From contig JAFTLD010000085.1 of assembly GCA_017452945.1 (NCBI GenBank), positions 1-45,618 on the forward strand: a DNA stretch of 45,618 nt, given 5' to 3'. The stretch is from Clostridia bacterium. Its GTDB lineage: Bacteria; Bacillota_A; Clostridia; Oscillospirales; CAG-272. The translations under genes were made by a program, and so were the position numbers. Positions 18,256 through 30,401 of the stretch are shown here, piece after piece. The notes below the pieces were generated by a model, which was not told the DNA's origin, did no database searches, and saw only the letters and a list, made by a program, of their open reading frames with translations. Every line of letters starts with the position of its first letter. The first letter of the stretch is position 1.

Positions 18256-18543
18256 TCAGGACAAAAAATATCCTGCCAATGCACTCCCGAAGGCACCGAG
18301 AACGGCAGATGCCGTATACCCGATCACGTGCTCAATCAGCAGCCGCGGACGGCTCTCCAAAGCAGCGATCCTTTCCTCCTGACGCTGTGCGAGACGGTCG
18401 TACCGATCCACCATTTCGGTCAGCTTGATGGTGCATTTTTCCAAGGAATCGATCTGATCCCCATGCTTGCCAAGCCTTGCTTCAATACGCTCATGCCGCT
18501 CCTCGCACAGCACCTGCTTATAATCCTGTCTGTTGCCCGTCAT
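18256..18543 (-). CDS. Small phage membrane protein, XhlA/holin-accessory-like
   Basis: 95 residues. A long charged helix, probably coiled coil, runs over residues about 10-65. One C-terminal membrane segment rich in Ala, Gly and Val follows (about 72-94). This matches the build of XhlA-type proteins, which assist holins in phage lysis, though the match rests on topology and context only. AAGGAG lies inside the upstream gene, whose stop is one base before this start. No partner holin or endolysin follows, so a lysis role would be incomplete. It is the last gene of the phage operon. Confidence 0.65.
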   Translation of the reverse strand: MTGNRQDYKQVLCEERHERIEARLGKHGDQIDSLEKCTIKLTEMVDRYDRLAQRQEERIAALESRPRLLIEHVIGYTASAVLGAFGSALAGYFLS

Positions 18544-18544
18544 C

Positions 18545-20116
18545 TTACTTGTACTCCTTGATCACCGACAATATGCTGTAATCGCCCTTACCGTCAATGC
18601 GAATGCCCAGCTTATGGCAGGCGCGCGGCAGAAGCGGCACGTACCAAACGCGTTCCCCCTCGGATTGCAGCTGTGCGCGCGTCTCCCATTCCCCGTCGTC
18701 GTAGCAAACAGAGAGCGTCAGCTCGCTGCCCTCTGCGCATCTGACGCGCACACCAAGCCGCACGGGAACAATCTCCGATCGCGCGTCGTCGATCAGCGGC
18801 TGCAGTTGAGCATAAGAGGAAACGTCGCCCACATCCGTACCGTGTCCCGTGTTGTCATATCCCAGAATATAGACCACGCTGTCGCTGCAGTAGGCATACA
18901 CGTCACCGCTCAGATACCCAAGATAGCAGATATTGCTGCCATCCTCTGCATGCCACGCCCCCGTGACCGTATCGTATATGTAAAGTGCTCTCGCGCCCTG
19001 CTCGTTTACAGCACTCAGATAGTAGCGTCTGCCATCCGTGGTAGCAATGCCGTCGTGCAGACGAAGCCCGAGAGATTCGGAGATCACGGTCGCTGTGCTG
19101 CCGCTGCAGCGCACAACACCGTTGCGCGAAAGATACAGCATCTCACCGCCAACCGAGCAAAGCGACGCACCGCTGCCGCTCATCACGCCCGAAAGGCAGG
19201 TTTGCACAATGGAAAAGTTAGAAGGATTGTCGCCAAAAACCTCGGTGATGCTGTTATCTGTGAAAAACACGGGACGTCCTTGATGCATCACGCATCCCGT
19301 AAATGCGGTGCTGTTCGGCACGTTTTGCATATAGCTGCTCTGTGCGTCCCCGTCGTAGCGGAACCAGTTGCTGATCTGCCCCGGGGCGCTGGCATAAATG
19401 GTGTTACCGCGGTATCCCCAAACTCTGTCCTCGCAAGTACAAGCCCCCTCCAGATTCGGGCCCGTGACCGTAACGGTACAGGATTCAATATCCTCTGCGA
19501 CAAAGGAATTCTCGTCAAAGCGCAAATCGAATTCTTCCACGCTGCGAATGGTGTAAAAGCCGTCGTTTGAGGTCGTGCCTGCCAGCATGATACCGTCGCC
19601 CGGAGAGAAAAAATCAAGAAAATTGAAGTCTACACAATGCAGCGTATTGAATTTTTTGGTGCGTGCCGTACCGTCCTCGTCCACGTAGTTCTCATTCTGT
19701 ATGATGACGTTTGCCAGCGTCAAGCGCACGTACCTGGATTTGAGCAGCTTTGTTTTGGTGTTGTACACCTTGAAATCGGGCAACACAAGCAGATCGTTGC
19801 CCAGCATTGCAAACACCTTTTCCTTGGTGTTGATATTTCCCAACACCTCCACTCTGTTCTCGGACAGTGCGCGCATCAGCTCACCGTTACACGCAAGATA
19901 CAGATCGTTTGAGCAAAACATTCCCTGCACGCCGTCCGAAAGCTTGAGCCAGGTCCGCCTTGGCGGGCGGGAGGAAAGCGCAGGGTAATCATCCCCGCTC
20001 ATATTCTCTCCCGCCAAATACGTGTTTTGCCGCTGTCCGTGCCGGTGCCACAGCCCGGACGTAAAATCGTTGTCTATCTGCTTGTAGGTTTTGGATCTTT
20101 CAAGCTCGGGTAACAT
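18545..20116 (-). CDS. Phage beta-propeller-like protein, probable DNA stabilisation/connector protein
   Basis: About 523 residues, rich in beta strands, with repeated short blocks such as GDNPSNF, YLSRNGVVRCSG and YIYDTVTGAWH that suggest a propeller. In short-tailed phages with P22-type organisation, a protein of this size and place after the capsid plugs the portal and holds the packaged DNA (gp10 type). I assign that role by fold impression and gene order, not by clear motifs; a tail or receptor-binding role is the alternative. The ATG at 20116 overlaps the upstream stop by one base, which argues for this start over the TTG at 20119. The next gene starts one base after its stop. Confidence 0.65.
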   Translation of the reverse strand: MLPELERSKTYKQIDNDFTSGLWHRHGQRQNTYLAGENMSGDDYPALSSRPPRRTWLKLSDGVQGMFCSNDLYLACNGELMRALSENRVEVLGNINTKEKVFAMLGNDLLVLPDFKVYNTKTKLLKSRYVRLTLANVIIQNENYVDEDGTARTKKFNTLHCVDFNFLDFFSPGDGIMLAGTTSNDGFYTIRSVEEFDLRFDENSFVAEDIESCTVTVTGPNLEGACTCEDRVWGYRGNTIYASAPGQISNWFRYDGDAQSSYMQNVPNSTAFTGCVMHQGRPVFFTDNSITEVFGDNPSNFSIVQTCLSGVMSGSGASLCSVGGEMLYLSRNGVVRCSGSTATVISESLGLRLHDGIATTDGRRYYLSAVNEQGARALYIYDTVTGAWHAEDGSNICYLGYLSGDVYAYCSDSVVYILGYDNTGHGTDVGDVSSYAQLQPLIDDARSEIVPVRLGVRVRCAEGSELTLSVCYDDGEWETRAQLQSEGERVWYVPLLPRACHKLGIRIDGKGDYSILSVIKEYK

Positions 20117-20307
20117 CAAGGATCCCTCTCTTCAAGCCTTTTCAAAAAAGCAGGCTGCATATTCTCCTCGGAAAGGTGCGAGAGCACGTATTCAAGATCC
20201 CGAACCAGCTTGTCATAGCTGCGAGCCAGCAGGATCACAGACTCGCCTGCAGAGGCTGCCCGTACAGCACTCTCGATCCCTTTGCTGCCGATCACAACCT
20301 TAGCCAT
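20116..20307 (-). CDS. Small phage protein, unknown function
   Basis: 63 residues, mostly helical and charged at the C-terminus. No family recognised. It sits between two phage genes with a 1-nt gap upstream and a 1-base overlap downstream, so it is translated in coupling. Its place after the capsid gene fits a head-tail connector or assembly factor, but nothing in the sequence proves that. Confidence 0.65.
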   Translation of the reverse strand: MAKVVIGSKGIESAVRAASAGESVILLARSYDKLVRDLEYVLSHLSEENMQPAFLKRLEERDP

Positions 20308-20308
20308 A

Positions 20309-20569
20309 TCAGCCTATCCCCCTGCTCTGTCCTACAAAGCGGTTCTGCTCGGCCTGCATCAGCTGCGCAGCCTTGGTGTCCTGGATCTCGGACTGATCCA
20401 GCACAAGGGCGAATTTACGCTTGATCTTTACCCATTCACCCCTTTTGATGACGCAGTTTTTGCCATTGATCGCTACGTAAACGTCATCCTTGTAGCGATC
20501 GTTATCCTTAAACAGCTTAATGGCAATGTATTCCTCCAAATAAGCCTGATCAGCGGTCTGTTTTTCCAT
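20309..20569 (-). CDS. Small phage head-region protein, unknown function
   Basis: 86 residues. The centre, VYVAINGKNCVIKRGEWVKI, is a beta hairpin pattern often seen in small proteins coded next to N4-gp56-type capsids. The last 30 residues are helical. It may be a head decoration or connector protein; this is inference. AAAGGAG stands 5 nt before the ATG. The gene follows the major capsid gene by 22 nt. Confidence 0.7.
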   Translation of the reverse strand: MEKQTADQAYLEEYIAIKLFKDNDRYKDDVYVAINGKNCVIKRGEWVKIKRKFALVLDQSEIQDTKAAQLMQAEQNRFVGQSRGIG

Positions 20570-20591
20570 ACCGACTCCTTTCTTTTATCTC

Positions 20592-21887
20592 TTAGTCTTC
20601 GTCGTTGAAGGTGGAGGCAGTTTCAATTCTGACCATGAATGCCTCGACCAGACGCGCGGTTACCTTGGTTGCCTTCCAGCCCACGGTTGCGCGCTGGTTG
20701 AGAGGATCCGAGGTGCCTGCGCTGCCCAGCTGCTTGACGATCAGCTCAAGGCCGCCGCCCGTGATCTCGGTGGTGCCGTATGCATTCTCACCAAATACCA
20801 TGGTCGCGTATACGTCGCGCCCTTCTGCACCTGCCTCACCGGGATAGATCGGATCGTTATCAGAGCAGGTAACGGACGCATTGGTGCTCTTGGTGCTGTC
20901 GGTATACAGCGTCATGGAGCTGCCCGTATTCTCACCGACGTAAGCGCGCGTGCCGCCGATCAGTACGTATCTGCCAACCAGTGCGCCCGCGGGTACACTG
21001 CCGCTGTCAAATGCGATCTCGTGCGCTGCGCTGTAGCCCGCACTGTTGTTGACCTTCAGTGTACGGGCGTTGCTTGCCAGATCCTCTGCGTGGAAAACCT
21101 TAGCCTCGCTGGATTCGATAAAGCGTACGCCCTCGATCTTACCGATCTCACCCTCCATGATATTGGAAGGATCGGCATACTGATTGGGCGTTTTCCAGTT
21201 GGGATCGCTCATCAGGTCATACGCGCAGTCGGGATGCACGATGGCAATGTAAGAGCCCTTGATCTTTTCTGCGTTCTGATTCTTGAGGAAGCGGACAGCA
21301 CGGCGCACAGCGTCCACAGACAGATAGTGGTTGCCGCTCTCCTTACCGCCCACCAGCAGGTATCTTGCAGGAACTGCATTTTCAGCGTACTGCACGTTGG
21401 TGCCGCCTGCCAGCACCTCACGGGTGATGGTATCCAGCGTTCTGCCTGCCTGAGAGCCAAGCAGCTTGGTTGCCATGCAAAGGTTATTGTCAATGGCAGT
21501 CAGGATCAGAAGGTCGGTCAATTCAACATAACCGCCATACTGGGCAACGGTTGCCTCCAGCACCTCCATGCTGATGCTCTGCCCTGCGGGCGTCACACCC
21601 TCTTGAATGGGAGTGGTCAGCTTGGGCAGCGGATTGTAGCGACGGAACTGCACGGTCTTGCCGCCATTTGCGGGGATGGTATGCTTTTGTGCAAACATGT
21701 CGTGCACCAACGCAGGCTCTGCGTTATCAATCAGATAATCGGAATAGTAGGTCTTCATCTCCTCGGAAAGGCCCATTCCTACGGTGTAAGCGGTGGTTGC
21801 ACCGGTTGTGGCATTGGTGTTGCCCTCGGTGCTCATAACGTTGGTGCCTGCAGAAAATCTCTGCAGATCAAAATTCTTGTGATTCAT
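20592..21887 (-). CDS. Major capsid protein, N4-gp56 family
   Basis: 431 residues from the ATG at 21887, which has AAGGA 7 nt upstream; a longer frame upstream lacks a ribosome binding site and overlaps the scaffold gene. The body matches the N4-gp56 major capsid family (HK97 fold): TIPANGGKTVQFRRYNPLP, EGVTPAGQ and AQYGGYVELTD are hallmark segments. The N-terminus, MNHKNFDLQRFSAG, resembles the start of ribosomal protein L27 in Firmicutes (NLQ then F then A), which the protease Prp cuts. A Prp gene lies 0.7 kb upstream in the same operon, so the capsid may be trimmed after Phe11. Confidence 0.92.
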   Translation of the reverse strand: MNHKNFDLQRFSAGTNVMSTEGNTNATTGATTAYTVGMGLSEEMKTYYSDYLIDNAEPALVHDMFAQKHTIPANGGKTVQFRRYNPLPKLTTPIQEGVTPAGQSISMEVLEATVAQYGGYVELTDLLILTAIDNNLCMATKLLGSQAGRTLDTITREVLAGGTNVQYAENAVPARYLLVGGKESGNHYLSVDAVRRAVRFLKNQNAEKIKGSYIAIVHPDCAYDLMSDPNWKTPNQYADPSNIMEGEIGKIEGVRFIESSEAKVFHAEDLASNARTLKVNNSAGYSAAHEIAFDSGSVPAGALVGRYVLIGGTRAYVGENTGSSMTLYTDSTKSTNASVTCSDNDPIYPGEAGAEGRDVYATMVFGENAYGTTEITGGGLELIVKQLGSAGTSDPLNQRATVGWKATKVTARLVEAFMVRIETASTFNDED

Positions 21888-21901
21888 AAATAATTCCTTT
21901 C

Positions 21902-22588
21902 TTAAAATGTGATGTGTTCCCCCTTTGCCGCGCGCTCGGCAAGCACGGCTCGCTGCGCACGCGTCAGGTGGGCTGCCCGCCCCGCACCTTGCCAAGATGC
22001 TCCGTTCAATCCGTTTTCATGCGGTCTTGCATGACGGATCTGCACAGCACCCAGCAGCTGCGAGGCGGTTTCTGCCGCTGCATTTTGAGCAGCAGATGCC
22101 TTCAGACTATCCAGATGGAATAGCTCGTAAAGGCTTGTCAGCGAGATCTCGGGGCTTGCGGCAAAGCCCTGCAAAAGCGTTGCAAAGGAAGGATCGGCAC
22201 TATCCCTTTGCAGGTCAAATTCCGGATATTTTTCCCGCACGGCAGCCTCCTCGCTTTGCCAATCTCTTTGCGCAGGCGTTAAAAGCTCGGTGATCCTTGC
22301 AGGCACTTGCGCGGGATCCTCTAATCCCAAAAGCCCTGCAGCGGTATTCAGCACCTCGCTGCTTGCACGCTCCGATTTCAGTCGTTTTCTTACAATGTCA
22401 GAGATATGCTCGGTGTAAAGCGCGTGAAATCTGGGAGAATGAATGATCTGCTCCCATTCGTGCTTTACGTCCTCGCGGCTCTCGGCGTCAGAGCCATTTG
22501 GTAAGTTCTCGCCCGTATTGCCGTTCTCTGTCGGCACCATGCTCCCGTCGTCAGACATGGAATTTTGCATTTGTTCGACCGTATTCAT
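21902..22588 (-). CDS. Phage scaffold protein
   Basis: 228 residues, acidic and helical, located directly before the capsid gene as scaffolds usually are. It has a disordered N-terminus to about residue 40, a helical centre and a basic, Ala/Arg-rich C-terminal tail that could bind the capsid shell. A segment near 121-135 with YPEFDLQRDSADPSF matches the pattern often seen in scaffolds of N4-gp56-type phages. AAAGGA precedes the ATG. It should direct assembly of the procapsid and then leave or be degraded. Confidence 0.8.
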   Translation of the reverse strand: MNTVEQMQNSMSDDGSMVPTENGNTGENLPNGSDAESREDVKHEWEQIIHSPRFHALYTEHISDIVRKRLKSERASSEVLNTAAGLLGLEDPAQVPARITELLTPAQRDWQSEEAAVREKYPEFDLQRDSADPSFATLLQGFAASPEISLTSLYELFHLDSLKASAAQNAAAETASQLLGAVQIRHARPHENGLNGASWQGAGRAAHLTRAQRAVLAERAAKGEHITF

Positions 22589-22628
22589 CTGTTTTTTCCT
22601 TTCTCACGGCCCATTTGCCGTATGCGTC

Positions 22629-22925
22629 TTATATATAAGAATTTCTCATTGTCACATAACCCGGGTATTGATCCGCAATGGCTACAAGACCGCACGCAGC
22701 CATATCAAAGGCCGCGTTGCGCTCGGGCAGCGTGATCATTGCATACCCATCTGCCAAATCTGCTTCGGCAGTACAATCGTCATATTCTTCCAGATACGCT
22801 GCCAGCGCGTCCACCAACGCGGACACCGCTGCGCAGACGATGTCATCGCCCGTGGCGTATCCCGCGTGGCCGACTACCTCCAGGCAATAGCCCTGTGCGT
22901 TTCGATATGCGCTTGCCTCAATCAT
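22629..22925 (-). CDS. prp: Ribosomal-processing cysteine protease Prp homologue, probable prohead protease
   Basis: 98 residues, full length for the Prp (YsxB/DUF464) family. The catalytic pair is clear: His20 in GHAGYA and Cys31 in DIVCAAVSAL. The host enzyme removes the N-terminal extension of ribosomal protein L27 in Firmicutes, and the Staphylococcus enzyme is known to trim phage 80alpha head proteins with a similar motif. Here the gene lies within a phage head operon between portal (4-nt overlap) and scaffold. I infer it is the maturation protease of this phage. The capsid N-terminus carries the expected kind of motif. Confidence 0.88.
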   Translation of the reverse strand: MIEASAYRNAQGYCLEVVGHAGYATGDDIVCAAVSALVDALAAYLEEYDDCTAEADLADGYAMITLPERNAAFDMAACGLVAIADQYPGYVTMRNSYI

Positions 22926-24532
22926 AGCGCACTCCCATCTCTGACCATCTGCTTGACTCTGCCGATGCCCTCGAAGTCCATCATCTCCAGCATCATCAGA
23001 GTCTGTTCTCTTTGCTCGGAAGAAAATGCGCCCTTTTCGTAAAGCGACATGGCAAATTCGTTCGCAGCCTCCCGCGAAAGCGGATTTGCTACACGCGCCT
23101 TGACCGAAATGTCAAACACCGGCTTGCGCATATAGACCGCGCCCTTATCGCTGAGCACCTCTCGCTCGCGGATGCCGCCATTCCCATACTGCAGGTATTC
23201 GTGCCCGTTCTCCTTGGTGACGCGGAAGGTACGCGCCTCGGTATAAAACTGACGGATCAGCTCAATGATCAGCTGCACCACACCGATATAAGCGCGGTTG
23301 GAAGCAGCTATCACGTCACGCGCATTCTTGTTTCCCGCCTCCTGCAGCGCCTTGATGGCAGTAGCTGCCGTAATGCCGCCCGAAAGCGAGCCTTGCGAAA
23401 CGTCACGGTTGCCCGTGGTTTCCTTAAGCTCGTCGATCTTGAGCTTTTTGAGCGTCAGCAGCCCTTGGTCAAAGCTGCCGATGCGGATCTGCTGCAGCTT
23501 CTCCTCTTCAATATCTCCCTCGACCTCCACAATGCGCTGCTCAAGATCCATAAAGTCCTCCTGATTGACCCCCAGACTCTTTTTCGCCCAAAAGCGCACC
23601 TTGCTGGCCCAATCCGCATATTCCATGAAGTTGGCATCCAGTCGGTCAATGTAGATCTGCGGCTGCTTGGCTACGGCAATCATACCAAAGCCGTAGCACG
23701 TTCCCTCCTCGGGGTACATGACGTCCAGAACCACGGGGTACATGCCGTGATCATACCAGCCGATCTCACTGTACGCAGGGTCGTTCTCGGACGCATACAA
23801 CACAACACCGTCCGCAAACTTGCAGTAGTGCAGCACGTCCCTGCCGTTCACGTTCTTTTTATAGTACCAGTCCACCACAAGCGTCTTTCCCTGCTCGCTG
23901 CCGAAAAAGATGCCTTCGGGATCAGTATGGCGCACGCCTCGCTCAAAAAACACGGGATACGCCTGCTCCAGCGACTCGGTATCCTGCTCTGCAAGAATGA
24001 ACAAATGCTTGCTGTCCTGCAGGTTTTTCACACCGGGCTCCCAATAAAGATTCTGCACGTCCACGCGACGCACGTCAATATCGCCAAAGCCGTTTTCCAG
24101 GCGGTTGTTCCAGAAAACCCCGTACGCGCTGACACCGTGCTTGAGCTTATACCACATATTGTCCGAATACACGGACTCAAAATCGCAGCGATCCAGAATG
24201 ACCGGAATGATCTGCGAGAGCGTTCGTGCTTCCTTTACGTCACTTGCCTCTCTGGGCAAGCACGTGCAAACGGGCAGATGATCCATCATGTCCGCATGAC
24301 GGTTGGCAATGCTGTTGAACATCCAGGCTGAGCAACCGAGATCGCGCACCTCGGCAGGTGCGCTGCTGCCGTATCTGCCCTGCCAATATATTTCATCACT
24401 TTGCAGCCTGGAATCCAGAGGGCGTTTGGCCGCGCGATAATCTCGCAGAATACGCGCTGCCTTTGCGATCTCTTGTTCGGTTATGGGGAGCTTTTGCATC
24501 TCCCGCTTTTTGAAAATATCTTTGATTTGCAT
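22922..24532 (-). CDS. Phage portal protein
   Basis: 536 residues. It forms the dodecameric ring through which DNA enters the head. The sequence shows the mixed alpha/beta build of P22/N4-type portals: WMFNSIANRHADMMDHLP near residue 70, KHGVSAYGVFWN near 130, and a helical stem with VSQGSLSGGITAATAIKALQ near 385-405, which is the conserved Gln-rich portal segment. AAAGGAG precedes the ATG. It lies between large terminase (10-nt gap) and prp (4-nt overlap), the standard order. Confidence 0.9.
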   Translation of the reverse strand: MQIKDIFKKREMQKLPITEQEIAKAARILRDYRAAKRPLDSRLQSDEIYWQGRYGSSAPAEVRDLGCSAWMFNSIANRHADMMDHLPVCTCLPREASDVKEARTLSQIIPVILDRCDFESVYSDNMWYKLKHGVSAYGVFWNNRLENGFGDIDVRRVDVQNLYWEPGVKNLQDSKHLFILAEQDTESLEQAYPVFFERGVRHTDPEGIFFGSEQGKTLVVDWYYKKNVNGRDVLHYCKFADGVVLYASENDPAYSEIGWYDHGMYPVVLDVMYPEEGTCYGFGMIAVAKQPQIYIDRLDANFMEYADWASKVRFWAKKSLGVNQEDFMDLEQRIVEVEGDIEEEKLQQIRIGSFDQGLLTLKKLKIDELKETTGNRDVSQGSLSGGITAATAIKALQEAGNKNARDVIAASNRAYIGVVQLIIELIRQFYTEARTFRVTKENGHEYLQYGNGGIREREVLSDKGAVYMRKPVFDISVKARVANPLSREAANEFAMSLYEKGAFSSEQREQTLMMLEMMDFEGIGRVKQMVRDGSAL

Positions 24533-24542
24533 AAATTCTCCT

Positions 24543-25946
24543 TTATGATTTCAATGGGTCATAAACGTACGGTGCTATGGCCGCTCTCTTTTTTTCCTTG
24601 ATAATGGGGTACGCCATGGCAACGTAGCGGCATTCATCGTAAATGTGATCCTCTCCGTCGCTGTCGATATCCTCTACGTCTGCCGAATCGTAAATCAATT
24701 CGGGAAACGTGCGGATAAAGTGCGTGCAGGTCGAAAAAACGTAAAACATGGGGATCCCGGACGCATCAAACGCAAGTCTTGCATGCATCTGCGCTTTTCC
24801 CGCAAGGCGCGAATTATCTGCCTTATCCCAGTAAACGCCCTGCCGTTCCATCAGCTCGGCAATGCTCTCTCCCCCGTTTTTTTGACGGATTGCGGGATCG
24901 GCCACGCCCGTGATATAGCGGCCGCGCAGATTGGGATCGTCCTGTTCGATCTGACGGATGCGCCGCGCCACCTGTTCTGCTCCCCAGCGCACGCCCTCGT
25001 TCGGGCTGCCGCTACAGCCGTAAAGCTCGCGGATGCGGTACATGCGCCCGTCATGGTCAAAGGCATACCAGCCAACCGAAAAGGGTCTGGTATACCCCCA
25101 GTCAAAGCCACGGCACACGCGCCATGACTGCGGAATGGCAAACGGCTCGATGACGTGCGTGCCGATGCGGTCGCGGTAGTGATCGGGATCGTTACGCCAC
25201 TCTGTAAAGACCTGCCCCGCGAAGCAATCCCAGTCCCCGTACAAAAGCGCTCTGCGCTCCTTTTCGGGCAAGGCGGCAAGACGCGTCAGATATCCGGGAT
25301 CGTTTGCAAGCAGGATCTTGTTATCAAACACGGTAGACGGTACGAAAATGCGGGAGCGCCAACGCACCTGCTCTTGGCCGTCAGGCATGCGTACCGTGTG
25401 CTTTTCCCAAATGGTGGTCATGGGCTTTGCGGGCGTAATAAAGCGTTGCTTGACCCAGCCGTGTCCCACACCGCCCGGATTTGCCTGCGCACGCATGTAA
25501 CAGCGTGTCCCCGCACCGTTTGGGCGGTTTCTGGAAAACAGATAGGAATATTCATCCCAGGTAAACTGCGTCAGCTCGTCAAAGTCGATAAAATCGTACC
25601 GCTTTCCCTGATAATTCAGTCGATCATCGGTGTGCTGCAGCGATCCGAAGTAGATCTTTGCTCCCGAGGGAAACACCCAGACGTGCTTGGAATCATTGTA
25701 CCTCGCATTCGGATACGCTGCACGGAATAGCTCGGCTGAGCGATCTGTCAGCTCAGAAAGCTGCGGATAGGTCTTTCGCAAAATCAAACCGCGATAATAC
25801 GGAATATGTACCTGCCGTAAGGACTCCGCCAATGCACAATCCGATTTGCCGCCTCCCGCCGCGCCTCCGTACAGCGCCTCATCCTCGAACCTTGCCATAA
25901 ATGCTGCCTGTCTTGGCTGCGGAGTCCATATCACGCGCTCACTCAT
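24543..25946 (-). CDS. terL: Terminase large subunit
   Basis: 467 residues, full length. The packaging ATPase has Walker A GGAAGGGKS (27-35), Walker B YDFIDFDEL (about 117-125) and a coupling segment after it. The nuclease half has an RNase-H-like fold with Asp282 in GFDWGY and Asp350 in GVADPA, and a late acidic cluster near DECRYVAMAY. All key residues are present, so it should be active. The ATG overlaps the small-subunit stop by 4 nt, which implies coupled translation of the two subunits. Confidence 0.95.
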   Translation of the reverse strand: MSERVIWTPQPRQAAFMARFEDEALYGGAAGGGKSDCALAESLRQVHIPYYRGLILRKTYPQLSELTDRSAELFRAAYPNARYNDSKHVWVFPSGAKIYFGSLQHTDDRLNYQGKRYDFIDFDELTQFTWDEYSYLFSRNRPNGAGTRCYMRAQANPGGVGHGWVKQRFITPAKPMTTIWEKHTVRMPDGQEQVRWRSRIFVPSTVFDNKILLANDPGYLTRLAALPEKERRALLYGDWDCFAGQVFTEWRNDPDHYRDRIGTHVIEPFAIPQSWRVCRGFDWGYTRPFSVGWYAFDHDGRMYRIRELYGCSGSPNEGVRWGAEQVARRIRQIEQDDPNLRGRYITGVADPAIRQKNGGESIAELMERQGVYWDKADNSRLAGKAQMHARLAFDASGIPMFYVFSTCTHFIRTFPELIYDSADVEDIDSDGEDHIYDECRYVAMAYPIIKEKKRAAIAPYVYDPLKS

Positions 25947-26437
25947 GGTTCCTCAGGCGGCTGATCCGGCAGCATCACGGGCGGCAGCTCGATCACACCA
26001 CCGCTCTCACTCTCGGGCTCTGCTTTGCCCTCGCCCCATTCCTCACCGCGCCTGTTCTGCAGCCAAAAGATCTCGGCCCGTGTGTCCGCAGGCACGTGTG
26101 TTTCGTCAATGCCCGTCTGCAGCTCCTCATACTCCAGCACTTTCTTTCCGGAATCGGGATCAAACTCGGTGTGCTTGACCTTGTAGGTTTTTTTGACAGG
26201 TGTGGTATACCCCACCGCCTTGCGGTGCAACGCCTCCATAACGGCATAATCCGCGTTGTCCCTGCCGAATGCAAGCGCGGCTGCGATCTCGGGGTAACGC
26301 TTTTGCCAGCGCCGAAGCGTAGAGAGCGACACGCCCATGCAGGCCGCGATCTGCTCGTTGCTCTTCCCTACGCATGCCATGCCGCGCAAAAGCGTCAGGT
26401 TTTCAGGCGTCAACCATTTCGCAACTTCCCGCCCCAT
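25943..26437 (-). CDS. terS: Terminase small subunit-like DNA-binding protein
   Basis: 164 residues. The N-terminal third holds a helix-turn-helix (SNEQIAACMGVSLSTLRRW, residues about 26-44), followed by a helical region and an acidic Pro/Glu-rich tail. Small terminases recognise the phage pac site and hand DNA to the large subunit. The 4-nt overlap with terL supports the call. AAGGAGAGAG stands before the ATG. The start of this gene overlaps the end of the upstream small gene by 35 nt. Confidence 0.8.
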   Translation of the reverse strand: MGREVAKWLTPENLTLLRGMACVGKSNEQIAACMGVSLSTLRRWQKRYPEIAAALAFGRDNADYAVMEALHRKAVGYTTPVKKTYKVKHTEFDPDSGKKVLEYEELQTGIDETHVPADTRAEIFWLQNRRGEEWGEGKAEPESESGGVIELPPVMLPDQPPEEP

Positions 26438-26735
26438 GGCTCTCTCCTTGCTTGATCAACGTGATGAAAAAATCCTCTCCCGCATCCTTGGCCTCTACCG
26501 AATACTTGCCGCAAACGCTACGTATATCCTGCTTGGGAACACGCAGCTCACAGCCATCCTCGCAGCCTGTCCCGCAGCGCTCCAACAGATATACGATATA
26601 GGCTGCATACACAGCGTCCGCCTCGGTCTGCGCCCGCAAAAGATCCTCCAGAGCGGCAATTCTCTTGTCGCGCCAAGAGATCATATAGGCAAGCTTGCCA
26701 TCATCCTGCAATTTTTTGTCTTTGTGTTTCTGCAC
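26403..26735 (-). CDS. Small phage protein, unknown function
   Basis: About 110 residues. I choose the GTG at 26735 because AAAGGA lies about 9 nt before it; the ATG at 26753 has no ribosome binding site. The first half is a charged helix (YMISWRDKRIAALEDLLRAQ) that may form a coiled coil. The second half has three Cys. No family recognised. It overlaps both neighbours by about 35 nt, as packed phage genes do. Confidence 0.6.
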   Translation of the reverse strand: MQKHKDKKLQDDGKLAYMISWRDKRIAALEDLLRAQTEADAVYAAYIVYLLERCGTGCEDGCELRVPKQDIRSVCGKYSVEAKDAGEDFFITLIKQGESHGAGSCEMVDA

Positions 26736-26934
26736 AGCTATATTTCCTTTCATAAAATTGATCCATGGTTTGCTTGATCACGCAATTCTGATATCCGTCT
26801 GGATGTGCGCAATATTTGTAAACAATATCGCGCCGCGCCTGCTTATCCGGAAAACGAAAGCGCGCACATTCGCAATAGGTGTAACCGTCACCCTTCTCTC
26901 TTTGAAAATAGGGGCAAGTCCCCGCAATCGGCAT
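26701..26934 (-). CDS. Small Cys-rich phage protein, possible metal binder
   Basis: 77 residues from the ATG at 26934. AAGGAGG fits this start with 7 nt spacing, while the ATG at 26940 sits almost on it. Six or more Cys are spread as CPYFQ, YCEC, KYCAH and NC, which suggests one or two zinc sites. This is the first gene behind the operator region, so it could be a regulator, but no known fold is evident. Confidence 0.6.
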   Translation of the reverse strand: MPIAGTCPYFQREKGDGYTYCECARFRFPDKQARRDIVYKYCAHPDGYQNCVIKQTMDQFYERKYSCAETQRQKIAG

Positions 26935-26981
26935 AAACATTCCTCCTTTTTGTCCGTTTAGGTTGCTTAACTCTTCTGCTC

Positions 26982-27010
26982 AAAATAAAAACCGACCGCC
27001 AAGCATCGGT
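26982..27010 (-). terminator. Terminator-like hairpin in the leader of the phage late operon
   Basis: On the minus strand ACCGA (27010-27006) pairs with TCGGT (26995-26991), and TTTTTATTTT follows. It lies between the late promoter and the first gene, so it could act as an attenuator or as a stop for leaky transcription. The stem is short. Confidence 0.55.
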
Positions 27011-27043
27011 TGTCCGAGTGGTTTAATTTGCTTAACTGTCATG

Positions 27044-27072
27044 AGTATATCACAGGTGTTTATAAAAGTCAG
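27044..27072 (-). promoter_or_regulatory. Probable promoter of the phage late operon
   Basis: CTGACT (27072-27067), 17 nt, TATACT (27049-27044) on the minus strand, about 110 nt ahead of the first late gene and flanked by operator sites. Confidence 0.6.
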
Positions 27073-27116
27073 CCCCCGCTTTAATAAAATTTCCTTAACT
27101 TTTTTCTGCCAACCAC

Positions 27117-27145
27117 TTGACATTTGCTAAACTCTCATTTATAAT
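27117..27145 (+). promoter_or_regulatory. Promoter of the repressor gene
   Basis: Consensus TTGACA (27117-27122), 17 nt, TATAAT (27140-27145), with AAGGAGG 6 nt before the ATG at 27175. The -35 box is inside operator site 4, which points to autoregulation. Confidence 0.88.
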
Positions 27146-27174
27146 AAAAACAACACGATACAAGGAGGCCCCCT

Positions 27175-27828
27175 ATGGAGCTTATCAATACTTTTACCGA
27201 CCGACTCCGCCAAGCCATGGACGCGCGCGGTATGCGCGCTGTCGAGCTTGCCCGCCTGACAGGTCTGTCCAAAGCAAGGATCAGCCAGTATACCAACGGC
27301 ATTTACGTCCCCAAGGCAGACGCCATGCACAAGCTGGCACGCGCACTGGAGGTAGCCGATCTTTGGCTGGAGGGTTATGACGTACCCATGGAGCGCACAA
27401 GCTCGTCCATTCCCAATTATCCCGATATTTTTCCCATCGAACGCCGCCGCATTCCCGTGCTTGGCGAGATTGCTTGCGGCAAGCCGATTCTGACCGACGA
27501 GGAGCATGACAGCTTTGTCATGTCCGGCACCAATCTGGACGCGGATTTTTGCCTGCGCGCCAAGGGTGACAGCATGATTGGTGCGCGTATTCAGGACGGT
27601 GATATCGTATTCATTAAAAAGAGCGACATGGTTGCCAACGGTGAGATTGCTGCCGTGGTGATCGAGGACGAAGCCACGCTCAAGCGCGTGTACTACTACC
27701 CCGAAAAATCCAAGCTGATCCTGACTCCCGAGAATCCCAAATACGAACCTCTGGTATTCATGGGTCCTGAGCTTGACGAGATCCACATTCTGGGCAAGGC
27801 TGTTGCGTTTCAGTCGGAGATCAAATAA
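27175..27828 (+). CDS. CI/LexA-type phage repressor (HTH_XRE plus S24 peptidase)
   Basis: 217 residues. The N-terminal XRE helix-turn-helix (about 8-62, including AVELARLTGLSKARISQYTN) binds DNA. The C-terminal S24 domain has a likely self-cleavage site at Ala100-Cys101 in IACGKP, nucleophile Ser133 in GDSMIG and Lys170 in ATLKR. Such repressors keep a prophage silent and cut themselves during the RecA/SOS response. The gene diverges from the late operon, and four matching sites lie between them. The repressor is intact, so the module may still be under SOS control. It is the only regulatory gene of the element. Confidence 0.93.
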   Translation: MELINTFTDRLRQAMDARGMRAVELARLTGLSKARISQYTNGIYVPKADAMHKLARALEVADLWLEGYDVPMERTSSSIPNYPDIFPIERRRIPVLGEIACGKPILTDEEHDSFVMSGTNLDADFCLRAKGDSMIGARIQDGDIVFIKKSDMVANGEIAAVVIEDEATLKRVYYYPEKSKLILTPENPKYEPLVFMGPELDEIHILGKAVAFQSEIK

Positions 27829-28477: not shown

Positions 28478-29251
28478 TCACATCTGTTTGCGTATTTTCT
28501 CCAATGCTCCCTTTTCAAGTCTTGACACCTGCGCTTGCGAGATGCCGATCTCCTCGGCAATCTCCATCTGCGTTTTATTCTTATAATAACGCATGGCAAT
28601 GATGTTGCGCTCACGCTCGGAAAGCGTACGTACCGCCTCCTTGAGCGCAATGTTCTCCAGCCACGCCTCGTCACTTGAGGTTCGGTCGCTGAGCTGATCG
28701 ATGACGTACAAGGTATCGCCATTTTCGTTATAGACCGGCTCGTAAAGCGAGATTGGCTCCACAACGGCCTCCATGGCGCGCAAAACCGCCTCCTTTTTCT
28801 CTCCTATGCGTGCTGCAATCTCGTCAGCGCCCGGCTCACGCTGCTTCTCACGCAGCAGCTCTTCCCTTGCCTGCAGCGACCTATATGCCAGATCACGGAT
28901 GGATCGGCTGATGCGAATGGTATTGTTGTCGCGCAGATATCGACGGATCTCACCAATGATCATGGGTACGGCATAAGTCGAAAACTTGACGTCCAAATCA
29001 ATATTGAAATTATCCACCGCCTTGACAAGCCCGATGCAGCCCACCTGAAACAGGTCATCCATGTTCTCGCGTCGGCCGGCAAAGCGTTGAATGATGGACA
29101 GCACCAAGCGCAGATTTCCGTAGATCAGCTCCTGTCTTGCTGCTGCATCCCCTTGTTTTGTTCTTTTAAGAAGGTCGTTTTTTTGTTCATCGGTCAATAC
29201 AGTCAGCTTAGCAGTGTTGACCCCACAAATTTCCACTTTGTTATAATACAT
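28478..29251 (-). CDS. sigG: RNA polymerase sporulation sigma factor SigG
   Basis: 257 residues from the ATG at 29251, close to the 260 of Bacillus SigG; a longer frame exists upstream but this start has AAGGGGAG 5 nt before it. The N-terminus MYYNKVEICGVNTAKL is diagnostic for SigG. Region 2 follows (DLFQVGCIGLVKAVDNF, then FSTYAVPMIIGEIRRYLRD), and region 4 with a helix-turn-helix lies at the end (QMEIAEEIGISQAQVSRLEK). SigG runs late gene expression in the forespore, so the organism belongs to a spore-forming lineage. The usual neighbours spoIIGA and sigE are absent; the gene sits downstream of an exopolysaccharide operon. A perfect hairpin covers its ribosome binding site. Confidence 0.96.
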   Translation of the reverse strand: MYYNKVEICGVNTAKLTVLTDEQKNDLLKRTKQGDAAARQELIYGNLRLVLSIIQRFAGRRENMDDLFQVGCIGLVKAVDNFNIDLDVKFSTYAVPMIIGEIRRYLRDNNTIRISRSIRDLAYRSLQAREELLREKQREPGADEIAARIGEKKEAVLRAMEAVVEPISLYEPVYNENGDTLYVIDQLSDRTSSDEAWLENIALKEAVRTLSERERNIIAMRYYKNKTQMEIAEEIGISQAQVSRLEKGALEKIRKQM

Positions 29252-29253
29252 AC

Positions 29254-29289
29254 AAACTCCCCTTGACGTTTTTTCGTCAAGGGGAGTTT
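29254..29289 (-). promoter_or_regulatory. Hairpin sequestering the sigG ribosome binding site
   Basis: On the minus strand AAACTCCCCTTGACG (29289-29275) and its exact complement (29268-29254) pair over 15 bp with a loop of six A. The 3' arm contains AAGGGGAG, the sigG ribosome binding site, and ends two bases before the ATG. No T-run follows, so it is not an obvious terminator. A GTATA box at 29313-29309 could be the -35 element of a SigF/SigG-type promoter, with a poor -10 match; initiation from it would fall inside the 5' arm. Confidence 0.8.
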
Positions 29290-29345
29290 TGCCCGTTTGT
29301 GTCAAACGTATACAATTTTGCTTATTGGAGATTTTTGGAGAAAGA

Positions 29346-30401
29346 TCAGACAAAAATCAGTCTTGCCAACCGATAGCCCCAACGATAGATCGGAAAGATG
29401 CGGAATAAATATACCCAGAACAAATAGATTGGCCGACTCCCGATCAGCACAGCGTTTTTGATCAGGGCAATCCGTTCCTTGACGGACAGCTTGATCTCAA
29501 AGACCTTTTTGATCGGATATACTTTGGGAAACGGCATGTGACATCTCTCCATCTCTTCAAGCGTATCGGATATGGAGGCATCCGCAAGCAGCAATGCATT
29601 CAAGATTTCCAAAGACCATATCTTTTGGTATTGATACGCTATCTGATAGCGTTGTGAGCATGCATCGATTTTTTGCAGATAATCGTCATACAACCGCGCA
29701 CGGAATAAAAGGTCTGCAATCCTTGCGCTCATATCCGCTTTTCCATACCTGTGCACTGCCGATCCGCGTCTTGCACGGTAGCAATACGTGGGCTGATCCA
29801 AAAGCAACACGCGCTCTGCTGCTTGCCAGACAGAAAAAGCAAATACGGTATCCTCCCCGTACGTCAGCTGCAAAACAAAGCGCAAATGCTGCGCATCTAT
29901 CAATGATTTGCGGACTATAATGCCACAGCACGTACTGAACATAAGCTCCGCCTGGTCAAGAGTGTATGCCCTACAGCTCAACAGATCGGGAGCTTTACAA
30001 TCAATGTAATGCGATTTTTGCGGCACGTGCTCGTTGCGGATCTGCAACACGTCCGGCTTTTGCGTTTGCATCAGGTGCGCAAAGTAGCCCAGCACGCAAG
30101 GTTTTATGTAATCGTCCGCATCCACAAAAGCCACGTATTCACCACGGGCTGCCTCCAGACCTGCATTGCGTGCAGCAGAAACACCTGTATGCTCTTGGCT
30201 GATCACACAAAGATTTTCATGCTTTTTCGCATATTCCTCCAAAATCGCCTGGGAAGCGTCCTGCGATCCGTCATTGATGCAAATAATCTCATAGTCGGTC
30301 TTGGCCAGATCTTGCGTCAGCAAGCTATCCAGGCAATCCGACAGGTATTCTTGTACGTTAAAAACGGGAACAATAATGCTGATCTGACACTCGGCTTTCA
30401 T
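29346..30401 (-). CDS. Glycosyltransferase family 2
   Basis: 351 residues from the ATG at 30401, which has AGGGGAG 6 nt upstream; an ATG at 30419 overlaps the previous stop but lacks such spacing. GT-A fold motifs: SIIVPVFN, EIICINDGSQD, the DxD-type FVDADDY, and GEDTVF with the acidic residue thought to act as base. The C-terminal part is helical and basic, ending in an aromatic-rich membrane-associated stretch. It should add a sugar from a nucleotide sugar to a lipid-linked repeat unit. Last gene of the exopolysaccharide operon; no terminator is seen between it and sigG. Confidence 0.9.
   Translation of the reverse strand: MKAECQISIIVPVFNVQEYLSDCLDSLLTQDLAKTDYEIICINDGSQDASQAILEEYAKKHENLCVISQEHTGVSAARNAGLEAARGEYVAFVDADDYIKPCVLGYFAHLMQTQKPDVLQIRNEHVPQKSHYIDCKAPDLLSCRAYTLDQAELMFSTCCGIIVRKSLIDAQHLRFVLQLTYGEDTVFAFSVWQAAERVLLLDQPTYCYRARRGSAVHRYGKADMSARIADLLFRARLYDDYLQKIDACSQRYQIAYQYQKIWSLEILNALLLADASISDTLEEMERCHMPFPKVYPIKKVFEIKLSVKERIALIKNAVLIGSRPIYLFWVYLFRIFPIYRWGYRLARLIFV

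Follow-up and report, generated by a model that had tools for sequence, protein, structure and literature searches.

Results

The protease gene and the start of the capsid

The stretch of DNA analysed here (45,618 nucleotides, hereafter the window) comprises positions 1 to 45,618 of contig JAFTLD010000085.1 from a Clostridia bacterium (Oscillospirales, CAG-272; assembly GCA_017452945.1). It carries a phage head cassette in which a gene for a small Prp-family cysteine protease (prp) lies between the portal and scaffold genes, and in which the major capsid protein begins much as does ribosomal protein L27, the substrate of host Prp. The relationship between this protease and this capsid leader is our subject; coordinates are collected in Table 1, and L and G numbers denote loci and host genomes.

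The window Prp matches Pfam family PF04327 (E 7.4e-15; 55.4 bits, above a cut-off of 27), and its ATG overlaps the stop codon of the portal gene (ATGA). The solved Prps 2g0i and 2idl align with it, His20 and Cys31 included, and the predicted fold agrees with this match. A preliminary description of the locus had placed a full Prp homologue with His20 and Cys31 between portal and scaffold; the PF04327 match and a reading of the codons bear this out, although the coordinates offered for it, 21887-22629, need amending: they extend from the start codon of the capsid to the final base of prp, and what they span is mostly scaffold.

Among 138 aligned Prps the catalytic His and Cys columns are kept together in 135. 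A homologue in the usual place at L082 (L082:8958-9260) has lost both residues and was counted as Prp-positive; that of L141 has Glu in the His column, perhaps through misalignment, and that of L144 is truncated. The gene appears to be under purifying selection, with a ratio of nonsynonymous to synonymous divergence (dN/dS) of 0.05-0.11 in five pairs, synonymous divergence (dS) being saturated in a sixth. The window enzyme scores at best 40.7 bits against equivalog models of ribosomal-processing Prp, for which the cut-off is 185; it lies in the portal-scaffold interval instead of the rplU-rpmA position; and the nearest host Prps are ~30% identical to it. On a tree a single change divides 98 phage from 37 host copies, with weak support (79). 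Among the open reading frames of the head cassette scanned with Pfam or PHROGs no classical prohead protease (S14, S21 or S78 type) was found, the sole other peptidase domain being the S24 domain of the repressor.

The capsid, read from the ATG at 21887 with AAAGGA upstream, begins MNHKNFDLQRFSAG and displays the L27-like motif FDLQRF/SAG (here and below the slash marks the cut site, predicted in the case of phage proteins). Ahead of Leu40 only Met1, Gln9 and Phe11 are invariant in 17 diverse capsids. Of 117 distinct capsid N-termini, 46 have the strict motif [LI]QxF[AGS] within residues 1-35; among other open reading frames with an ATG and a ribosome binding site it is found there in 8 of 1343, four of which are scaffolds and one a host L27. 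The capsid leader motif is thus more than chance, and the suggestion that the capsid start resembles the Prp-cut leader of L27 holds, both in the window and in these counts.

Protease and leader in related loci

A tblastn search of phage records with the window Prp gave no match, and relatives were therefore reached via the capsid. Two locus lists were used, the best 80 of 303 and the best 80 of 504; the capsid locus set numbers 175 (174 fetched, plus the window). Seventeen of the 175 loci lacked an anchor and one a start, and 13 of the 17 were restored with separately obtained N-termini; two loci, L100 and L065, proved to be start-call errors, the N-terminus of L100 being corrected by hand, and four loci with fusions (L026, L027, L029 and L030; see below) were set Prp-positive by hand.

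Prp-positive loci number 127 of 175. They have 97 distinct capsid N-termini, of which 96 match a loose leader pattern, the lone exception being the start-call error at L100. In a larger set of 151 loci of known state, 133 have both Prp and leader, 12 have neither, six have a leader-like motif only and none has Prp only; thinning to 112 loci leaves 95, 11, six and none, respectively. In the 18 Prp-negative loci, scanned up to E 10, nothing passed as a credible Prp, the best match having E 0.2. On the best capsid tree there are 11 changes of the Prp label, of which at least 8 fall on supported branches. Eight independent pairs contrast in Prp; the leader changes the same way in 3-4 of them, the opposite way in none, and is unchanged in the rest (4-5).

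Most leaderless capsids begin no more than about 10 residues from an N-T-T-like stretch, which in relatives lies after the predicted cut; this stretch is absent from leaderless L111 and reached slightly later in L107. Among phage records, 10 of 74 with a capsid match were examined: all four with Prp have the leader, five of the six without Prp have no extension, and the sixth, a Bacteroides phage, has a hydrophobic N-terminus that lacks LQxF and fits the loose pattern.

At L098 (4363-6450) a scaffold and a capsid with leader-like motifs (RLDLF/D, KLDLF/D) follow host-like genes, and the 6.5-kb contig yielded neither portal nor terminase nor Prp. In the divergent group formed by L110 and L114, neither portal nor Prp was found upstream. 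A record titled Candidatus Heimdallarchaeota (L089) carries a Clostridia-type phage of this group with Prp, probably through a binning error.

Scaffold leaders and fused proteins

The window scaffold starts MNTVEQMQNS, without the leader motif. A candidate second site within it, EFDLQRDSA, was rejected: it has Asp at P1 and sits in a YPxF region common to relatives. The motif is present on the scaffolds of L024, L032, L084, L095 and L168, and on those of a set of fusions in which Prp and scaffold occupy one open frame. Fusions were seen in four distinct relatives – L026 (identical to L027), L029 (identical to L030), L286 and L287 – and account for 4 of 165 loci with a scaffold match (two distinct frames) and for 2 of 5 phage records with one. 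The joints read AFDLQLF/G (L026), TFHLQLF/A (L029) and MDLQLF/A (both L286 and L287). The simplest reading is that each fusion is a protease-scaffold polyprotein that would cut itself. An ATG stands between the Prp domain and the joint motif in L029, L286 and L287, and none does in L026; since in three of the four it shortly precedes the scaffold leader, the scaffold alone could also be made. A further possible Prp substrate is a long open reading frame downstream of the head genes at L099 (19535-21229), which begins EVDLQLF/A.

The fusions bear on the idea that the leader is an assembly tag, retained in the particle, and that phage Prp is an assembly cofactor with no protease activity. The relevant passages of a study of phage 80alpha lend this some substance: there the scaffold N-terminus is needed, its cutting is not, and capsid cleavage is dispensable for assembly (PMC5744158). 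A mere cofactor, however, sits poorly with the retention of the catalytic pair in nearly all aligned copies and with joints that are themselves the cut motif; we consider this explanation very unlikely.

Host L27 and host Prp

For 60 of the 80 genome loci the host was searched for L27 and Prp; this covered 58 genomes (L113 was left out, and L082 and L084 share G026). Of these, 50 yielded an L27, long in 42 and short in eight. The host pattern demanded Gln at P3 and Ala at P1′, and failures were inspected by eye, G052 and G046 proving long (Gln, Ala) and the others short. No Prp was found in the eight genomes with short L27, either between L21 and L27 or near L27. Whole-genome searches with PF04327 found no Prp in G031, G033, G035, G037 and G047, matches on the phage contig only in G034 and G042, and one match below the cut-off, on another contig, in G039; such searches miss copies that have diverged, and only a custom-built profile caught the phage Prps of L086 and L104. 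In laboratory E. coli a control search with the family found no Prp. Short L27 and missing gene point the same way, towards hosts without Prp. Of the phages in these eight hosts, four have both Prp and leader (L086, L087, L096, L104) and four have neither (L081, L088, L090, L092).

Could the phage enzyme act mainly on host L27, as a take-over or a back-up, its capsid motif being secondary? It does belong to the same family as the enzyme that trims L27. Yet Prp is kept in phages whose hosts have a leaderless L27, prp is part of the head operon, with fusion to the scaffold in some relatives, and the window Prp is far removed from the ribosomal-processing enzymes in score and identity; we give this idea almost no credence.

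The closest host relative examined (G003, host of L038) has a long L27 with an LSLQFF leader and its own Prp beside rpmA. At L050 a phage prp and a host prp-rpmA pair lie ~10 kb apart on one contig (8948-9376 and 19293-19778).

Drift of the leader sequence

The capsid leader pattern demands Phe at P1 and favours Leu, Ile, Val or Met at P4, leaving P3, P2 and P1′ free. Among 106 distinct leaders beside a phage Prp, 57 have Gln at P3. At P2 there are 59 with Leu, 20 with Arg, 13 with His, 8 with Met and none with Phe, and at P1′ 40 with Ala, 32 with Gly and 23 with Asp. The leader of L071 reads LDLTLF/G. In long host L27s, P3 is Gln and P1′ is Ala in 42 of 42, and P2 is Phe in 34 of 40 counted. 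The capsid motif NLQHF/A is retained in L084, L093 and L120, where no Prp was found, and in L082, whose Prp lacks the catalytic residues; the scaffold of L084 carries LNIQLF/A, identical to the L27 motif of the same host. L110 (NLAKF/G) and L114 (NLSKF/G) fall outside this simple picture of drift.

It appears that a phage with its own Prp is free to leave the host motif, and that phages without one are tied to it. The preliminary description had asked whether phage and host Prps can act on each other's substrates. Because Gln at P3 drifts beside phage Prp while NLQHF/A stays in three phages without Prp and in one whose Prp is inactivated, comparison of the leaders suggests specificities that overlap and are unequal.

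These observations bear on a further explanation, in which host Prp cuts the capsid, as it does in 80alpha, and the phage enzyme does something else or something more. The retention of NLQHF/A in the three Prp-less loci, two of which (L084 and L093) have hosts with Prp, speaks for it, and the closest host relative has both enzyme and L27 leader. Against it, four hosts that apparently lack a Prp themselves carry phages with Prp and leader, leaders drift from the L27 motif where phage Prp is present, and at no locus does Prp accompany a leaderless capsid. We regard host Prp as an unlikely agent in the window.

The head cassette and its surroundings

The minus-strand cassette comprises the terminases, portal, prp, scaffold, capsid, two small genes, a 524-aa protein and a holin-like gene, and is closed at the other end by a plus-strand CI-like repressor (Table 1). 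It measures ~10 kb (18256-27828). A melibiase gene flanks it on one side; on the other are polysaccharide genes and a sigG-like gene, which stands just upstream of the repressor and adjoins the element in L036 and L038 as well. The chromosomal place is the same in L036 and L038, between the sigG-like gene and melibiase, and in L005, beside melibiase. The window open reading frames scanned, which did not include every small one, held no recognisable integrase, replication gene or endolysin.

Table 1. Features of the window that bear on the protease, the capsid and their surroundings
Feature	Coordinates	Strand	Basis
Holin-like small gene	18256-18543	minus	phrog_937, weak, E 1.2e-4
524-aa protein, phrog_511 'internal virion protein'	18545-20119	minus	phrog_511
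Major capsid protein, N4-gp56 family, 431 aa	20592-21887	minus	TIGR04387 E 1.5e-84; phrog_1357
Predicted leader of the capsid (MNHKNFDLQRF, residues 1-11), predicted to be cut off after Phe11	21855-21887	minus	comparison of capsids
AAAGGA, likely ribosome binding site of capsid gene	21895-21900	minus	read from sequence
Scaffold protein, without leader motif	21902-22588	minus	phrog_13908, position
prp, 98-aa Prp-family cysteine protease	22629-22925	minus	PF04327, phrog_4478 peptidase; between portal and scaffold
Catalytic Cys31 codon of prp	22833-22835	minus	read from sequence
Catalytic His20 codon of prp	22866-22868	minus	read from sequence
Portal, P22-like	22922-24532	minus	PF16510 E 1.1e-24
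Terminase large subunit	24543-25946	minus	PF03237, phrog_979
Terminase small subunit	25943-26437	minus	phrog_309 E 2.7e-31
CI-like repressor with S24 peptidase domain	27175-27828	plus	PF00717, phrog_4
SigG-type sporulation sigma factor gene	28478-29353	minus	NF006071, 401 bits, cut-off 372

Compared with these relatives (L036, L038 and L005), dS is ~0.6-1.5 for most phage genes, 1.2-2.1 for prp and 0.7-1.2 for flanking host genes, values so high as to be imprecise. Since the dS of the phage genes is like that of the flanking host genes and dN/dS is low, the data fit an element that is vertically inherited and under purifying selection; it may be domesticated, in the manner of gene transfer agents.

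Discussion

What can be read directly at the locus and in its relatives – the gene with its catalytic pair and predicted fold, the leader, and the shared presence or absence of protease and leader – leads us to propose that the element encodes its own capsid-processing protease, and that this Prp cuts off the capsid leader after Phe11 without needing host Prp (a probability of roughly 0.85). Cys31 would be the nucleophile and His20 the base; the capsid precursor would be cut between Phe11 and Ser12, and the 11-residue leader removed during head assembly, independently of the host Prp that trims L27. We infer the cut itself, precisely which bond it breaks, when it happens in the procapsid, and the agency of the phage rather than the host enzyme. 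The pairing of a phage Prp with an L27-like capsid leader, as first put forward, is supported by comparative evidence: the conserved catalytic pair, the fold, the joint distribution and the phages with Prp and leader in hosts that apparently lack Prp.

Several points weigh against this proposal. At six loci (L084, L093, L120, L098, L110 and L114) a leader-like motif is seen but a phage Prp was not found, and therefore either phage Prp is not always needed or it was missed. The sequence sets are related and the locus lists are the best 80 of longer ones; the phylogeny-aware sign test, with too few pairs, reaches a median p of 0.125, short of 0.05. Host genomes are draft metagenome bins in which both absence and bin membership are uncertain. 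The structure model of the capsid (mean predicted local distance difference test score, pLDDT, 50.6) is too poor to judge the exposure of the leader. Finally, given the long L27 and the Prp of the closest host relative, a host Prp could also cut the window capsid.

A wider picture can be drawn, although only tentatively, and we think it somewhat less probable than not. Prp-type enzymes might form a class, so far undescribed, of proteases dedicated to capsid maturation in the N4-gp56/P22-portal phages of gut Clostridia. This phage lineage of enzymes would be old, independent of host Prp and equipped with its own cut motif, and some members would be Prp-scaffold polyproteins that cut themselves at an internal LQLF. 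The window enzyme would then serve an element of ~10 kb, vertically inherited and next to a sigG-like gene, that may still produce particles in the way of gene transfer agents.

A natural experiment on the role of head cleavage is offered by phages that have protease and leader together or lack both; the relevant passages of the 80alpha study call this role still unclear (PMC5744158). An enzyme that seemingly works in Prp-less hosts allows head cleavage to be tested apart from an essential host pathway; a review treats host Prp as an antibiotic target (PMC9405229). The drift of cut sites away from the L27 motif, moreover, reveals positions that can vary between phage and host Prps.

Comparison with known systems

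A phage-encoded capsid protease of the Prp clan is already known from Streptococcus phage Cp-1; the pairing with an L27-type leader, independence of host Prp and Prp-scaffold fusions appear to be new. At the level of titles and the beginnings of abstracts no description of these three features was found in the literature, and an earlier mention is possible.

In 80alpha, as the pertinent passages of two sources have it, host Prp cuts L27 together with the phage capsid and scaffold (PMC5744158, PMC9405229). The window resembles this system in its L27-like N-terminal capsid leader and in the cut after Phe, which in the window is predicted only. It differs in that the 80alpha enzyme is the host's, with none in the phage, whereas the window phage has its own prp; and in that 80alpha has the leader on both capsid and scaffold, the window on the capsid only.

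Passages of two reviews place the Cp-1 protease in the same clan as Prp and have it cut the major head protein of Cp-1 N-terminally, removing about 40 or 48 residues, depending on the review (PMC12445089, PMC9405229). Cp-1 (MEROPS C108, clan CR) thus shares with the window a phage-encoded Prp-clan protease, the substrate in the window being proposed from co-occurrence. The gene concerned in Cp-1 we take to be orf13, the record of which says hypothetical. Its product has GHG and SCARVST, as does Prp; unlike the window Prp it has no Pfam match, belongs to a different PHROG, and is not encoded between portal and scaffold. The Cp-1 head protein, unlike the window capsid, is of the Phi29 family and has no LxxF motif in the region removed.

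Bacterial Prp (YsxB) has its Pfam family, catalytic His and Cys and fold in common with the window Prp; it differs in its rplU-prp-rpmA locus and in its distance from the window Prp, which at ~30% identity falls far below the equivalog cut-offs.

The fusions recall a different arrangement, the lambda-type protease-scaffold gene, C with internal Nu3. Like L026, L029, L286 and L287, lambda has protease and scaffold in one open frame; but the lambda protease is unrelated to the cysteine protease of the fusions, which have their cut motif exactly at the joint, and in the window Prp and scaffold are unfused.
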